Shown here: in pieces, positions 7,049-13,818 of the stretch
Layout of the letters: the number at the start of each line of letters is the position of its first letter
How positions within the stretch are numbered: the first letter of the stretch is position 1
NCBI RefSeq assembly: GCF_013004105.1
Contig: NZ_CP053085.1
Coordinates: forward strand, 5,084,001 to 5,148,000
Reading direction: 5' to 3'
DNA length: 64,000 nucleotides
DNA from: Gemmatimonas groenlandica
Lineage (GTDB): Bacteria; Gemmatimonadota; Gemmatimonadetes; Gemmatimonadales; Gemmatimonadaceae
The notes under the pieces: generated by a model
Told to the model about the DNA's origin: nothing
Database searches by the model: none
The model's input: only the letters and a program-made list of their open reading frames with translations
Made by a program: the position numbers and the translations under genes

Positions 7049-8212
7049 TTACGCTGTCTCGAAGGTGCCGCGTCGCTCGGTCATTCCGCCCTGAATGTGC
7101 CACACCCCGCGCGCCATCACGTCGCGCACGCGATGTCCGGCGTCGAGCACGACCAGGTCGGCGTCGGCCCCGACCCGGAGGGAGCCCTTCGCCGACAGGC
7201 GGAGCAGCGCCGCCACGTTGCTGGTGAAGGCCGGCAGAATCCGATCGAGACCGTGTCCGCGGGCCACGAGCTCCCGAACCGTTTCCAGCAGACTGCCGGC
7301 GTGACCGACGCCCATCTGCACGACCCGGCCATCGGTATCGAACACGGGCAGACACCCGCCCCCGTCGCTGCTGACGGTCACGTTGCTGCCCGGCGCGCCG
7401 CTGTCCCAGAAGCGCTCGAGGGCGTCGGCGGCGTTCCAGGCATCTTCCTCCGGCGACACGTCGAACGACGTGATATCCACCACGCAGCCGCGGCGGGCCA
7501 GCGCGATCGCCTCCTCGAAGAGCGCCCGCTTCCGATTCACATGGGTCGGGTTGAACACCCGCGCCGGGATCTCGCTGGTGTCGAGCGCCTGTCGCACCAG
7601 ATCGAGTCCGCGCACGCCGTCTCCCATGTGAAGATGCACCACGCCCGCCTTGCCGGTCATGATGCCGCCCACGTGCGCCTCGGCCGCCACCTTCAACAGA
7701 TCGTCGAGTGTGGGTTGGCTCGAGCGATGATCACTCAGCGCGAGCTCGCCCACGCCGATCACCCGATCGAGATGCACGATGTCACCGCGCACGCTTCCAG
7801 TGAGCGTCACCGGCGGCAGGTGATACCCGCCCGTGTGACACCACGCCGACAGCCCCTCGGCCACCAGCCCGCGAGCCGTGACCACCAGCTCGGCGGTGCT
7901 CCGCGTGACGTCGTCGGTGCCGAGTACGCCGATGGCCGTGGTGACACCGGCGTGCGTGTATTGCGAGAGCGGCGGGGCAGGCACGCGCGTGTTCGGGCCG
8001 GCTTCACCGCCGCCGCCGGTGAGATGTGCATGGCCGTCCACCAACCCGGGAATGACCACGCGCCCCTCCAAGTCGATCTCAGGCACGCCAAGCACCGGGG
8101 GGAGCGCACCGAGCGACGCGCCCATCCACAGGATCTGCTCTCCGCCGATGAGCAGGTCCATCTGCCCCCGCGATTCAGGAGCGAAAACAGTCGCATTGCG
8201 TAGCAGCAGCAT
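7049..8212 (-). CDS. iadA: Isoaspartyl dipeptidase (beta-aspartyl peptidase)
   Basis: A 387-aa M38 amidohydrolase that hydrolyses beta-aspartyl dipeptides. In this locus the likely substrate is beta-Asp-Arg released from cyanophycin. The metal motif GLVDGHAHLTGGGGEAGP matches the IadA family, followed by SDHRSSQP, a TGKAGVVHLHMGD segment holding the probable carboxylated lysine and a metal histidine, NPTHVNR with a second histidine, and SSDGGG with the catalytic aspartate. The protein ends GTFETA, as I recall for E. coli IadA. Length is normal for the family. The gene is divergent from cphB-cphA, with about 105 bases between the starts. The assignment is firm on motifs plus context. Confidence 0.93.
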   Translation of the reverse strand: MLLLRNATVFAPESRGQMDLLIGGEQILWMGASLGALPPVLGVPEIDLEGRVVIPGLVDGHAHLTGGGGEAGPNTRVPAPPLSQYTHAGVTTAIGVLGTDDVTRSTAELVVTARGLVAEGLSAWCHTGGYHLPPVTLTGSVRGDIVHLDRVIGVGELALSDHRSSQPTLDDLLKVAAEAHVGGIMTGKAGVVHLHMGDGVRGLDLVRQALDTSEIPARVFNPTHVNRKRALFEEAIALARRGCVVDITSFDVSPEEDAWNAADALERFWDSGAPGSNVTVSSDGGGCLPVFDTDGRVVQMGVGHAGSLLETVRELVARGHGLDRILPAFTSNVAALLRLSAKGSLRVGADADLVVLDAGHRVRDVMARGVWHIQGGMTERRGTFETA

Positions 8213-8317
8213 GCGGGAACGTTACCCAGCGGCCACGGCCAGCGTTAGCTTTGAACATGCTCGACACGTACGGCGATGTACGCGACGCACCGTACGGCCC
8301 ACGCAAATCCAGGACCT

Positions 8318-9166
8318 ATGCGCGGTTGGATCATCCCGATTGGCGGCAAGCTGCTCGCCCCGTCCATTCTCGACCGCTTTGTCGCGTTGAGCGGTGGCGC
8401 GGCGGCACGCATTGCGATCATTCCGACCGCATCGTCCGAGCCGGACATGGGCGCGTTCTATGAGCGCGTGTTCCAACGGCACGGCGTGACCCAGGCCAAA
8501 GCGCTCAACTTCGAGCGGCGCAGTGACTGCGACGACCGTGACTGGCTCGAGTGGCTGGGCGGCGCGACCGGTGTCTTCATCACGGGCGGCAATCAGCTCA
8601 AGCTCTCCACGACGCTCGGGGGAACCCCGGTCGGGCATGTGCTACGCGAGCGGCATGCGGCGGGGATGCACATTGCCGGCACCAGCGCCGGTGCCGCGTA
8701 TCTCAGCGAACATATGATCGCGTACGGCGCTGAGGGCAGTTCGCCCCGCGCCGGCATGGTCACGATGTGCGCGGGGCTCGGGCTCACCAATCGCGTCATC
8801 ATCGATCAGCACTTCCGTCAGCGTGATCGACTGGGGCGTCTGCTCACCGCACTGGCCTACAATCCGTTCGCCTTCGGGCTTGGCGTCGATGAAGACACGG
8901 CCGCGTTCATCGGGCCGGATGATACGATCGACGTGATGGGCACTGGCTCGATCACGATCATCGATCCGACGAACGTGTCGTTCTCGTCGATTGCCGAAGC
9001 CGAACCCGGCGAAGCCATTACACTGCTTGGCGCCACGCTGCATCTGCTGGCGGCCGGTGCGAGCTTCAATCTCCGCACCCGGCTGGCTGTGGCCACCGCG
9101 TCGACCACCTCTCCGCACGACGCGCTCAATGCCGCGCTGGGCGACTCTCTCGTCACGGCCGAATAG
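8318..9166 (+). CDS. cphB: Cyanophycinase
   Basis: An S51-family serine exopeptidase that degrades cyanophycin to beta-Asp-Arg dipeptides. The start at 8318 is preferred to the in-frame ATG at 8276 because CCAGGA lies just upstream and MRGWIIPIGGK begins the usual beta-strand of the family. That gives 282 aa. Family motifs are GVFITGGNQ (near residues 85-95), the nucleophile elbow AGTSAGAAYLS, IDQHFRQRDRLGRLL and GLGVDEDTAAF. It is directly followed, 6 bases after the stop, by cphA, so breakdown and synthesis genes share a transcript. The diverging iadA completes the degradation route. Confidence 0.95.
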   Translation: MRGWIIPIGGKLLAPSILDRFVALSGGAAARIAIIPTASSEPDMGAFYERVFQRHGVTQAKALNFERRSDCDDRDWLEWLGGATGVFITGGNQLKLSTTLGGTPVGHVLRERHAAGMHIAGTSAGAAYLSEHMIAYGAEGSSPRAGMVTMCAGLGLTNRVIIDQHFRQRDRLGRLLTALAYNPFAFGLGVDEDTAAFIGPDDTIDVMGTGSITIIDPTNVSFSSIAEAEPGEAITLLGATLHLLAAGASFNLRTRLAVATASTTSPHDALNAALGDSLVTAE

Positions 9167-9172
9167 CAGATC

Positions 9173-12037
9173 ATGAAGATTCTCGAACGCTCCACGTACG
9201 TGGGGCCGAGCCACTACGCGCATTTTCCCGTCATCCGGCTCGTCCTCGACCTTGGAGCGCTCGAAGAGTGGCCCACCAAGCGGCTCGGTGACGAGTTCGT
9301 TCAGGCGCTGCTAGCGGCGCTGCCGGGCTTGCACGAGCACGGCTGCTCGTACGGCGAGGCGGGTGGATTCGTACGTCGCATGACAGAAGACGACGGCACG
9401 TGGCTGGGGCATGTGCTCGAGCACGTGGCGATCGAGCTGCAGAACATTGCCGGCGTCAAAGTCACCTTCGGCAAGACGCGTGAGACCGCGCAGCCTGGTG
9501 TGTACGACGTGGTGTTCGAGTACGAGCAGGCCGATGTCGGACACGAAGCCGCCGAAGTGGCGCTCGATCTGTTGCATCATCTGCTGCCCGAAGCACTGCG
9601 TCCACGCGGCACCGATCCGAGCTTCGACCTCGCGGCGCGTCGTGACGCCTTCATTCGATACGCGCAGCGACGGGCCTTGGGACCGAGCACCGCGAGTATC
9701 GTGCACGCCGCTGAGGCGCGAGACATCCCGTGGATCCGACTGAACGAGCAGAGTCTCATTCAGCTGGGCTACGGCTGCTATCAGCAGCGGATTCAGGCGA
9801 CGATCACTGGCAAGACCTCGCACATCGCCGTTGAACTGGCCAGCGACAAGGAAGAGACGAACCGCATTCTGGCCAACCTCGGACTGCCGGTTCCGAAACA
9901 GCGCCTCGTGCAGACGGCCGAAAAGGCGATCAGTGCGGCCAAGACCATCGGGTATCCGGTGGTCACGAAGCCGTACAACGGCAATCACGGACGCGGGGTA
10001 TCGATTGCCTTGGCCACGCCCGAACAGGTGGTGGCCGGCTTCCAGCGCGCGCAGGAGATTTCGCGCAGCGTCATCGTGGAGAGTTACATCACCGGACACG
10101 ATCACCGCATGCTCGTGGTCAACGGTGAGCTCGTGGCCGTCAGCAAACGGGAGCCCGGAAAGGTGACCGGCGACGGCGTGCACAGCATCGAACAGCTGAT
10201 TGCCATCGTGAACAGTGATCCGCGTCGCGGGATCGGTCACGAGAAGGTGCTCACGCAGCTCGACCTCGACGAGCAGGCAATGGGGTTGCTCGCCAAGCTG
10301 GGGTACAGCGCCGGTACGGTGCCGCCCGCGGGTGAAGACGTCTACCTGCGCCTCACCGCGAACTTGTCGACCGGCGGCACCGCCACCGACATGACCGACG
10401 TGGTGCATCCCGACAACGCGGAAATGGCGGTGCGCGCGATTCAGGCCATCGGACTCGACGTCGGCGGCGTGGACTTCCTCACGCCCGACATTACCGAGTC
10501 GTACAAGGACATCGGTGGGGCCGTGTGCGAAGTGAATGCCGCGCCCGGCTTCCGCATGCACATGGCGCCGAGTGAGGGCCGCCCGCGCGATGTGGCGGGC
10601 AAGGTCATCGACATGCTGTTTCCCGATCGCGCGCCGAGCACGATTCCCATAGCGGCGATCACGGGCACCAACGGCAAGACGACCACGTCGCGCCTGCTGG
10701 CGCACATTCACAAGCTGGCGGGCAAGCGCGTCGGACTCACCACCACCGATGGTGTCTACATCGATGGACAGCGCACTGTCGAAGGCGACATGACCGGCCC
10801 GACGTCGGCGCGCATCGTGCTCAGCGATCCGGCGGTGCAGGTGGCGGTGTTGGAAACGGCCCGCGGTGGTCTACTCCGCGCCGGTATGGCCATGCGGCAT
10901 GTAGACGTCGGTGCGGTGCTTAACATTCAGCCCGATCACCTGGGACAGAAGGGTATCGAGACGCTGGAGCAGTTGGCCGAGGTGAAGCGCACGGTGGTGG
11001 AGATCGCGACGGATACCGCCGTGCTGAATGCTGACGATCCGAATACGCTGCGGATGGCAGCGTACACGAAGGCCAAGCACGTATGCTACGTGACGATGGA
11101 CCCGGCCCATGATCTGGTGCGTGAGCACATCCGCGCCGGTGGCCGGGCGATCGCGCTCGAAGCGGGCGTGAACGGACAGATGATCACGATCTACGATCGT
11201 GGCGCGCACATCCCGTTGCTCTGGACGCATCTCATTCCGGCCACGCTCGAAGGGCGCGCCACCTTCAACGTGCAGAACGCCATGTTCGCCGCGGCGATGG
11301 CGTTTGCCATGGGCGTACGTCTCGAGGATATCCGGCACGGACTGCGCACCTTCGACACGACGTTCTTCCAGGCGCCGGGCCGACTGAACGTGTACGACGA
11401 ACACCCGTTCAAGGTGCTCTTCGACTACGGCCACAATGCGCACGCCATCGCGGCGCTGTGCGACCTGGTGAATCGCATGAAGCCGGTGGGCCGGCGCATC
11501 TGCGTGTTGTCGGCGCCCGGTGACCGGCGAGACGAAGACATTGTGGCGATCGGCGCCGTGTCGGCGGCCGGACACTTCGATCACTACATCGTGCGCCGCG
11601 ACGATTCGCCGCGCGGGCGCGGTGTCGACGAGGTGCCGCGCATGTTGCGCGACGCGCTGATCTCGCATGGCGTCGCGGCGGACGCGGTCACGATGATCAT
11701 CGATGAGCAGGAAGCGATCGAAGGCGCGCTCCGCATGGCGCGGGCCGGCGACCTCGTGCTCGTGTTCGCCGACGTGCTCGCGCGCGGCTGGAAGCAGATC
11801 ACCAACTTCCGGCCGGATGACGAACAGCTCGTGATTCCACCGCCCCGGGCCGCGCGTGCGGTCCCGCGCGCCGCCGTGTCGGAAGAGGCGCCGGCCGACG
11901 ATACCGCGCCCGCACGTTCGACCGCGGCGCCAGCGACCACCGTTGAACCGCCAGCCAAGTGGAACAGCGTAACCGACGACGTCGTGCTCATGCGTGACGA
12001 GCGTGGTGTGATTCTCGTGCCCGAGGCCAGCGATTGA
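9173..12037 (+). CDS. cphA: Cyanophycin synthetase
   Basis: This enzyme polymerises L-Asp backbone residues and Arg side chains into cyanophycin using ATP. It is 954 aa and has the three-part CphA1 layout: an N-terminal domain (about 1-160), an ATP-grasp domain (about 170-480, with NGNHGRGVSI and ICEVNAAPGF-like segments), and a Mur-ligase domain whose P-loop GTNGKTTTSR lies near residues 495-504, followed by DYGHNAHAI and GDRRDEDI. An Ala/Pro-rich tail (about 885-935) ends in a short conserved-looking segment (DVVLMRDERGVILVPE). The tail is longer than in cyanobacterial enzymes. The stop codon overlaps the start of the next gene. No primer-independence claim can be made from sequence. Confidence 0.96.
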   Translation: MKILERSTYVGPSHYAHFPVIRLVLDLGALEEWPTKRLGDEFVQALLAALPGLHEHGCSYGEAGGFVRRMTEDDGTWLGHVLEHVAIELQNIAGVKVTFGKTRETAQPGVYDVVFEYEQADVGHEAAEVALDLLHHLLPEALRPRGTDPSFDLAARRDAFIRYAQRRALGPSTASIVHAAEARDIPWIRLNEQSLIQLGYGCYQQRIQATITGKTSHIAVELASDKEETNRILANLGLPVPKQRLVQTAEKAISAAKTIGYPVVTKPYNGNHGRGVSIALATPEQVVAGFQRAQEISRSVIVESYITGHDHRMLVVNGELVAVSKREPGKVTGDGVHSIEQLIAIVNSDPRRGIGHEKVLTQLDLDEQAMGLLAKLGYSAGTVPPAGEDVYLRLTANLSTGGTATDMTDVVHPDNAEMAVRAIQAIGLDVGGVDFLTPDITESYKDIGGAVCEVNAAPGFRMHMAPSEGRPRDVAGKVIDMLFPDRAPSTIPIAAITGTNGKTTTSRLLAHIHKLAGKRVGLTTTDGVYIDGQRTVEGDMTGPTSARIVLSDPAVQVAVLETARGGLLRAGMAMRHVDVGAVLNIQPDHLGQKGIETLEQLAEVKRTVVEIATDTAVLNADDPNTLRMAAYTKAKHVCYVTMDPAHDLVREHIRAGGRAIALEAGVNGQMITIYDRGAHIPLLWTHLIPATLEGRATFNVQNAMFAAAMAFAMGVRLEDIRHGLRTFDTTFFQAPGRLNVYDEHPFKVLFDYGHNAHAIAALCDLVNRMKPVGRRICVLSAPGDRRDEDIVAIGAVSAAGHFDHYIVRRDDSPRGRGVDEVPRMLRDALISHGVAADAVTMIIDEQEAIEGALRMARAGDLVLVFADVLARGWKQITNFRPDDEQLVIPPPRAARAVPRAAVSEEAPADDTAPARSTAAPATTVEPPAKWNSVTDDVVLMRDERGVILVPEASD

Positions 12038-13818
12038 CCGACGTGTCGGGCGACGAACCGGAGTATCCGTCGCCGAGCATCAGTGACTGTCGGCGGCTGC
12101 AGGGACCGAATCGCTACGGTCCGACGCCCGGTGCCGTGATCACGGTCGTCGTAGCCGATGACGCAGCCCGTCGTGCGGTCGATCATTGGCCGTACGCGGC
12201 GCGTCGCCTCACCCAAGCGCTCGGCTGGGAGCGCACCGAGTTCGTGGCGCGTCACAGCATCGGCGACGCGACCTGCTACCTCTCGGCGCCGATGGACGGA
12301 CTGATGACCGCTACCGCCGTGGCCGAAATGGCGTGGGTGGAGTCGGAAGCCTATGTCGACCAGCGAGAAGTGCCCGACGCCGCGCCATCGCTGCGCGTGC
12401 AGTACGCCGAAGAATGCGCGCGACATCCGCACGTGCGTGAGCTGGCCGCGGGAGCGCTCTCGCGAGGCCTTGCCTTCAGTATCGACGATGAAGCCGTGAG
12501 TGTCGGCAGCGGACGCGGCGTGCGCACATGGCCACATGGCGACGCGCCGCCGTCAGCGTCGGTAGCGTGGAACGACGTGAGCGATGTTCCGCTCATCATG
12601 GTCACGGGCAGCAACGGCAAGACCACCACCACGCGACTCGTCGCCGCAATGTGGCGCGCGGCTGGCGCGACGACCGGTTGGAGCTGCAGCGATGGTGTGT
12701 TCGTGGAGTCAGATGTCGAGAAGCGTACGCTCGGCGTGGGTGATTACACGGGGCCCGGTGGTGCGCGACTGGTGATGCGCGACGCCGCCGTCCAGGCGGG
12801 CGTGCTGGAGACGGCACGTGGCGGCATGCTGCGCCGCGGGCTTGGCACCACGACCGCCCAGGTGGCGGTGATCACGAACATCTCGGCCGACCACTTCGGT
12901 GAGTACGGCGTGCATACGCTGGAGGATCTGGCCGAGGTCAAGGCCATCGTCACGCGAGCGCTCGGGGCTCATGCGCGGCTGGTGCTGAATGCCGATGATC
13001 CCTCGCTCGTCGCCCTCGGCGAGCGACTCTCGGCAGTACATGCCGTGCCGATCGTGTGGTTCAGCATGAATGCCGACACGGAGCTCGTGGCTGACGGCAT
13101 CGATGTGCATGGCGATGGCGCAGTGCTGCACGACGGACATCTCATGCTCTGTCGTGAGGGCGTGTGGGGCGATTCCGGGCGCGTGAACGACATGCCCGTC
13201 ACGGCCGATGGAGCGGCGCGCCACAACGTGGAGAACGCACTCGCCGCTGCGCTCACGGCCAGTTGCGCCGGCGTGCCACTGTCGGCGGTGCACGTGACCC
13301 TTCGCCGATTCGGCTCGGCCGTGCATCACAACGCGGGACGTCTGGAGCGCTACGCCTTCGGCGGCATCACGGTGTTCGTGGACTACGCACACAATCCCGA
13401 AGGCATCCGCGCACTCTGCGCGACCGCGGCCTCGGTTGCGGCCACGAGACGCGGGCTGGTGCTCGGCAACGCCGGTGATCGCGACGACGAGCAGCTGCGT
13501 GCGCTCGCTCGCGCGGCGTGGAGCGTGGCGACGTTCGATCGCGTGATCGTGAAGGAGATGGTGTCGCTGCTGCGCGGGCGTCCAGAGGGGGAGTTGCCGG
13601 CGCTGCTGGTCGACGAGCTCCGACGCTGCGGCGCGCCCAACGATCGTGTGACGATATCGCCCAGCGAATTCGACGCGGTGTGCGAGTTGCTCGCGTGGGC
13701 ACGCGGCGGCGATGTGTTGGTGCTGCCCACCCACGCCGAGCGCGGGCGGGTCACGGGGTATCTCGAACAGCTGCGAGCCAGCGGGTGGCGAGCCGGCGAG
13801 TCGCTGCCGGAGACGTAG
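12034..13818 (+). CDS. Lone Mur-ligase-domain paralogue of cyanophycin synthetase
   Basis: The protein is 594 aa, probably starting at TTG 12034, which overlaps the cphA stop by 4 bases (TTGA). A GTG at 12043 is an alternative. Residues about 1-180 match no domain I recognise. From about 187 a full Mur-ligase module follows: P-loop GSNGKTTTTR (about 191-200), GVFVES, ETARGGMLRRGLG, ITNISADHFGEYG, LNADDPS, DYAHNPEGIR and GNAGDRDDEQ. These resemble the M domain of CphA more than MurC-F. The ATP-grasp domain of CphA1 and CphA2 is absent. Translational coupling suggests a role in cyanophycin or Asp/Arg peptide synthesis, perhaps as a partner subunit. Its actual reaction is unknown. Confidence 0.8.
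   Translation: MTDVSGDEPEYPSPSISDCRRLQGPNRYGPTPGAVITVVVADDAARRAVDHWPYAARRLTQALGWERTEFVARHSIGDATCYLSAPMDGLMTATAVAEMAWVESEAYVDQREVPDAAPSLRVQYAEECARHPHVRELAAGALSRGLAFSIDDEAVSVGSGRGVRTWPHGDAPPSASVAWNDVSDVPLIMVTGSNGKTTTTRLVAAMWRAAGATTGWSCSDGVFVESDVEKRTLGVGDYTGPGGARLVMRDAAVQAGVLETARGGMLRRGLGTTTAQVAVITNISADHFGEYGVHTLEDLAEVKAIVTRALGAHARLVLNADDPSLVALGERLSAVHAVPIVWFSMNADTELVADGIDVHGDGAVLHDGHLMLCREGVWGDSGRVNDMPVTADGAARHNVENALAAALTASCAGVPLSAVHVTLRRFGSAVHHNAGRLERYAFGGITVFVDYAHNPEGIRALCATAASVAATRRGLVLGNAGDRDDEQLRALARAAWSVATFDRVIVKEMVSLLRGRPEGELPALLVDELRRCGAPNDRVTISPSEFDAVCELLAWARGGDVLVLPTHAERGRVTGYLEQLRASGWRAGESLPET

Follow-up and report, generated by a model that had tools for sequence, protein, structure and literature searches.

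A predicted CphA1-like Mur ligase without the ATP-grasp core, encoded directly downstream of cphA in the cyanophycin locus of Gemmatimonas groenlandica

Described cyanophycin synthetases

Cyanophycin, or multi-arginyl-polyaspartate, is a nitrogen-storage polymer and, to our knowledge, has been regarded as made by a single enzyme. The HxxEH zinc site of the N domain is present in most CphA1s, not in all. In CphA2, the ATP-dependent site in use is the ATP-grasp site.

In the N domain of CphA1, the HxxEH motif forms a zinc endo-cyanophycinase by which primers are generated (PMC9262961, in the sections drawn on here). In the M domain of TeCphA1, residues N497, K499, E558, R731 and H748 bind ATP and magnesium (PMC9427784, cited from part of its text). 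CphA2 polymerises β-Asp-Arg with one retained ATP-dependent site (PMC10206079, likewise from part of its text).

The locus

The window analyzed is a stretch of 64,000 bp of the G. groenlandica genome (contig NZ_CP053085.1, positions 5,084,001 to 5,148,000). A first-pass annotation of the window had proposed a cyanophycin locus of four genes, namely iadA, cphB, cphA and a 594-residue Mur-ligase gene, the last coupled to cphA by four bases. The open reading frames agree with all four sets of coordinates, and the coupling is a shared TTGA (Table 1). In the sequence from 12020 to 12060, cphA ends AGC GAT TGA, and the TTG ACC GAC start of the fourth gene, here called the Mur-only gene, begins within it. 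iadA is divergent from cphB, whereas cphB, cphA and the Mur-only gene share one strand. In a Pfam scan, the cphA product has PF18921, ATP-grasp and Mur_ligase_M/C domains, and it can be aligned end to end with the solved CphA1s. The host genome of 5.18 Mb carries other Mur-ligase genes near 1.69–1.70 Mb and 1.27 Mb.

Table 1. Features of the cyanophycin locus, in window positions; residue numbers are those of the encoded protein.
Feature	Position	Strand	Description and basis
iadA	7049..8212	-	Isoaspartyl dipeptidase (β-Asp-Arg hydrolysis); TIGR01975, 397 bits vs cut-off 331
cphB	8276..9166	+	Cyanophycinase, peptidase S51; TIGR02069, 228 bits vs cut-off 126.6; PF03575
cphA	9173..12037	+	954 aa, complete CphA1 (N, G, M); TIGR02068, 1137 bits vs cut-off 850
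HxxEH zinc-peptidase motif, cphA N domain	9410..9424	+	H80, E83, H84, with C58 upstream; intact (alignment, invariant columns)
cphA stop/Mur-only start overlap	12034..12037	+	4 bases, TTGA (sequence)
Mur-only gene	12034..13818	+	594 aa, TTG start; CphA1-like N'-M', ATP-grasp core absent
N' domain	12064..12381	+	Residues ~11-116; predicted CphA1 N-domain fold, HxxEH absent; isolated-domain model, hhalign
G-domain start remnant	12382..12528	+	Residues ~117-165, matching CphA ~157-206; hhalign
M' domain	12580..13743	+	Residues 183-570; Mur-type ATP-dependent amide ligase; PF08245 and PF02875; VIA 7lgq, Z 34
P-loop GSNGKTT	12607..12627	+	Residues 192-198; K196 invariant 43/43
Predicted amino-acid-binding loop	13552..13581	+	Residues 507-516, KEMVSLLRGR; 1 residue more than in CphA1, other residues in place of Asp-Asp

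Domains and fold of the Mur-only protein

In Pfam, the Mur-only protein matches Mur_ligase_M (residues 190–408) and Mur_ligase_C (435–564) and nothing else. Its top family match is to the C-terminal part of TIGR02068, at 339.5 bits, under the cut-off of 850; the NCBIfam murE model reaches about 107 bits, far below that partial match. Thus, set against the CphA and Mur models as had been suggested, the protein is CphA-like. A sequence profile of 28 orthologues found no match for the N-terminal domain in the PDB, matching only the Mur part of CphA. The kinship of the N-terminal domain is recognizable through structure and profile comparison.

An AlphaFold2 model built on 43 aligned homologues has a pLDDT of 93.3 and a pTM of 0.93. 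In a PDB comparison (VIA), 551 of its residues superpose on SuCphA1 of Synechocystis with a Z of about 34, and the superposition runs from residue 14 to 583 of the model and from 1 to 872 of the chain, covering N and M together and skipping G. MurE and other Mur enzymes score lower, with Z of 22–26 and at most ~404 residues aligned. When the N' domain is modeled in isolation (pLDDT 94.0), each of the 11 best VIA rows is a CphA1 or CphA2, with Z from 8.5 to 11.8, and the next row has 6.9; Foldseek finds CphA1 at E values of 1e-5 to 6e-4. Profile comparison with hhalign also matches residues 11–165 to CphA 1–206 (E 4e-7). Identity to CphA1 across the structural alignment is 26–27%. Of the G domain, about 45–49 residues of its start are left. 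N' and M' thus stand in the CphA1 arrangement with G skipped, and on these models the Mur-only gene is a paralogue of CphA1 that has had its ATP-grasp core (about residues 207–485) excised. The N-terminal domain, once called unrecognized, is then a divergent CphA1 N domain followed by the remnant of the G start. The first-pass annotation was right that the protein has no ATP-grasp domain: the Pfam scan, the full-length and isolated-domain structures and hhalign rule out a hidden one in the N-terminal part.

The described classes can now be compared. With SuCphA1, TeCphA1, AbCphA1 and TmCphA1, the Mur-only protein shares the N and M folds, their relative placement and the ATP and magnesium residues of the M domain; its gene also has the same genomic home, beside cphB and cphA. 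It differs in lacking the ATP-grasp core and the zinc motif of the N domain, in having a longer loop without the Asp(-Asp), and in its sub-threshold TIGR02068 score. CphA2 is likewise a shortened CphA1 relative without HxxEH (PMC9262961, in the sections drawn on here), but the Mur-only protein is the reverse reduction, in that the ATP-grasp is gone and the Mur site is intact. With MurE and other Mur ligases it shares the Mur central and C-terminal domains, whereas its N-terminal domain is CphA1-like rather than UDP-binding, and sequence and tree side with CphA. Neither class covers the Mur-only protein: G is indispensable to CphA1 and is retained by CphA2, which can do without M. The claim that it lies outside the known classes is thus upheld within the open-licence literature searched, Pfam and NCBIfam, where no description of such a partner was found. 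The portions of PMC10206079, PMC9262961, PMC9427784 and PMC10687191 drawn on here make no mention of one.

Linkage, distribution and descent

A scan of genome contigs yielded about 50 full-length relatives of the Mur-only protein, in Pseudomonadota (alpha, gamma and Neisseriaceae), Planctomycetota, Acidobacteriota, Myxococcota, Gemmatimonadota, Fidelibacterota and Eisenbacteria. In 50/50 assessable loci the gene comes immediately after cphA on the same strand, and in 39 of those cphB immediately precedes cphA. A survey of neighborhoods in related genomes, proposed as a check on the linkage, thus finds it near-absolute. Conservation of both gene and position across phyla excludes chance adjacency. 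No further gene family is common to the flanks of four or more loci. The same trio occurs on Shinella and Ruegeria plasmids, where the Mur-only gene is annotated merely as "Mur ligase family protein". A closely Shinella-like trio is found on a plasmid labelled Roseateles sp. XES5 (L041, UNVERIFIED_ORG), a label that may be wrong.

In Gemmatimonadota, paired-type CphAs have at least 64% identity to the window's CphA, and other CphA types at most 54%. Among 298 Gemmatimonadota genomes, 45 have the Mur-only gene, full or partial; in 41 of these it follows cphA on the same strand, and in three it is at a contig end. The gene accompanies the paired type in 43/45 genomes, the other two matching cphA only partially, against 0/25 genomes with other CphA types (Fisher p 5e-17). 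A gammaproteobacterial class repeats this, with 7/7 paired-type and 0/9 other cphA genomes among 321. In a mirror-tree comparison, the distances of the Mur-only proteins and the CphAs correlate at r 0.90 over 40 loci, a value that shared descent of the cassette also yields. In one gemmatimonadotal genome (G185:C150), the Mur-only copy is broken over three frames and cphA was not detected; the copy is likely a decaying remnant or the product of assembly errors.

In a tree of M domains, the Mur-only proteins fall into a single group (bootstrap 100, SH-aLRT 100, with one very long branch left out). A second group (100/100) unites the paired CphA1s and the solved CphA1s of Acinetobacter and Tatumella. 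The window's Mur-only protein groups with CphA M domains, and the host's own MurE sits on a very long branch. The tree, the family models and the neighborhood give no sign of the clustering inside MurC-F, in a cell-wall context, that had been named as counting against a cyanophycin role. A misplaced cell-wall Mur ligase is ruled out by the excess of TIGR02068 over murE, by the tree and by the host's own mur genes at 1.69–1.70 Mb.

Catalytic residues and the N-domain motif

Residues N194/K196, E259 (a magnesium ligand), Lys303, His287, Asn398, R436 and H453 of the Mur-only protein are invariant in 43/43 sequences. This set takes in the equivalents of all five ATP- and magnesium-binding residues of TeCphA1 listed above; the equivalents of the carbamylated lysine and of other Mur motifs are likewise invariant. 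Such conservation suggests that the Mur site should be active. A non-catalytic scaffold or regulator, that is, a pseudo-synthetase, would agree with the loss of the N' peptidase motif, but with the M' catalytic residues kept in every sequence across phyla it is highly improbable.

HxxEH is found in 0/43 of the N' domains and in 49/49 of the assessable partner CphA1s. AbCphA1 and TmCphA1, which are solved and lie in the same clade as the paired CphA1s, do not have it. Since all assessable paired CphA1s keep the motif, there is no sign that the Mur-only protein replaces a lost primer site. These counts also bear on the proposal that it is a primer maker, one that would supply CphA1 with chain starts by joining Asp and Arg (or small acceptors). 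A Mur-type ligase predicted to be active and equipped with an acceptor-side domain would suit such a task, and CphA1s initiate chains poorly without primer (PMC9262961, as far as its cited sections go). The partners, however, have a primer-generating N domain of their own, and the CphA1s without the motif, of which TmCphA1 is published as primer-dependent, are the opposite of what the proposal predicts. A primer maker is thus rather improbable.

The amino-acid loop

The two ligases differ around the predicted amino-acid site. The C-terminal lid loop, which we take to be the counterpart of the DNPR amino-acid motif of MurE, reads D-D-x-x-RGR in 23/23 paired and solved CphA1s. In 23/23 Mur-only proteins its counterpart has one extra residue and lacks the Asp that nearly all CphA1s have there, and it typically reads xxxYLRGR; by analogy, it is predicted to bind the amino acid in these proteins as well. 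Position 268, beside the catalytic Glu, is Arg in 23/23 Mur-only proteins and mostly Ser, Ala or Glu in CphA1. Asn433 is invariant in the former and rare in the latter. Because loop and neighboring residue differ so consistently, M' most likely does not carry out the standard Arg addition; we infer that the amino acid it takes up, or its acceptor, is not that of the Arg-adding CphA1s. As far as sequence can tell, the loop changes speak for altered chemistry rather than for a plain duplicate.

Two unpaired CphAs of Gemmatimonadota (L113 and L119) have degenerate N domains, keep G, and carry the same one-residue-longer RGR loop; its presence in CphAs that are otherwise complete counts against the second-ligase proposal made below.

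A proposed role beside CphA1

We suggest that the Mur-only protein is a dedicated, active second ligase that, beside CphA1, acts on cyanophycin or on the ends of the chain, probably with another amino acid or acceptor. The proposal is drawn from the predicted fold, the conserved catalytic residues, the co-inheritance with one CphA1 clade and the altered loop, and is tentative, a little short of an even chance. A CphA1 paralogue would have lost the Asp-adding ATP-grasp core, its N' and M' keeping the CphA1 arrangement. N' would hold the polymer chain in the manner of the N domain of CphA1. M' would activate a carboxylate of the polymer, or of a CphA1 product, by phosphorylation and link it to an amine. 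The residue added would most likely be other than the standard arginine, or be added elsewhere. The step would thereby alter the composition of the CphA1-built chain, finish it or cap it.

The partner is probably not required for polymerization itself, since TmCphA1, of the same clade, is highly active with primer in vitro while working alone (PMC9262961, in the sections drawn on here). AbCphA1, also within the paired clade, is likewise published as a single-enzyme synthetase. The M domain of the partner CphA1 looks intact, which counts against the need for a second Mur ligase; it keeps the active-site motifs checked, and there is no sign of a failed M domain that the Mur-only protein would repair.

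The main rival to a second ligase with its own chemistry is an accessory arginine-adding subunit, which would form a hetero-oligomer with CphA1 or act in trans, adding the same Arg with more rate or processivity, the loop serving only to tune it. The intact catalytic set and the retained CphA1 arrangement of N'-M' agree with this, as does a K-E..RGR..GE frame similar to that of SuCphA1. Tight co-inheritance and an M-N'-M' fusion (see below) fit a complex, and tandem CphAs of Betaproteobacteria look like split subunits, so that divided synthetases may exist. Against it, the loop and position 268 differ, and conservedly so, from all solved Arg-adding CphA1s, the partner's M domain is already intact, and TmCphA1 does without such a subunit. 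We regard the accessory subunit as unlikely, though a serious contender.

If the second-ligase proposal holds, a co-inherited and apparently active enzyme in many phyla implies that cyanophycin is made or finished by two enzymes there; many bacteria may do so with two enzymes rather than one. Two-enzyme cyanophycin would possibly differ in composition in these bacteria. This would matter for how soil and marine bacteria store nitrogen and for the making of tailored polymers.

Other N-M proteins and divided synthetases

A Neisseriaceae genome encodes a 985-residue fusion of a CphA M domain with a full N'-M' (L093:3220-6174), beside cyanophycinase, and has a complete, separate cphA elsewhere. 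The fusion fits physical association of the two proteins; it could also be a meaningless gene fusion.

A plasmid of Legionella adelaidensis (NZ_LR134428.1, L173:4329-6194) encodes a 622-residue CphA1-like protein without the ATP-grasp core. It matches CphA 1–208 and then 473–863, keeps HxxEH and has a loop of the CphA1 type; it is an independent loss of G. Its gene adjoins cyanophycinase and isoaspartyl peptidase genes, with no full cphA on the plasmid, so that N-M enzymes can occupy such a locus without a G domain. This arrangement would agree with a separate enzyme, a small-molecule or capping ligase, that is only a neighbor in the operon and acts on β-Asp-Arg or another cyanophycin-derived peptide. 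In the main family, however, cphA is adjacent at every assessable locus, and the Legionella case has the CphA1-type loop and an absence of full cphA that covers the plasmid only. For the window's gene, we consider a separate ligase of this kind quite improbable.

Actinobacterial and Chloroflexi Mur-only genes near cphA/cphB (L094:2412-4187, L120:3190-6243 and L108:311-2071) constitute a second, separate group. The three proteins, more distant from the window's, have a CphA-like GPNLYF/GPNLF N-terminus and a YLRGR loop with the same one-residue insertion, a recurrence that speaks for altered specificity. A broader proposal is that N-M proteins lacking ATP-grasp are a third cyanophycin-making class, present in at least seven phyla in one operon type, which arose at least twice and writes a second residue or bond onto cyanophycin. 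We put this forward as a possibility that is somewhat doubtful as it stands; if true, the storage polymer of these bacteria would not be plain multi-arginyl-polyaspartate.

The tandem CphAs of Betaproteobacteria (L096-L110 and L123) are also two adjacent synthetase genes with apparently divided domains, but both match CphA through the G region and neither is N'-M'. In the first copy, C..HxxEH is kept but the lid is missing from the M domain; in the second, the M domain is intact and the N motif degenerate. Finally, the genome (G299) that contains locus L095 has, on another contig (L136), an extra Mur-ligase ORF of 580 residues that is 31% identical to the CphA M domain.
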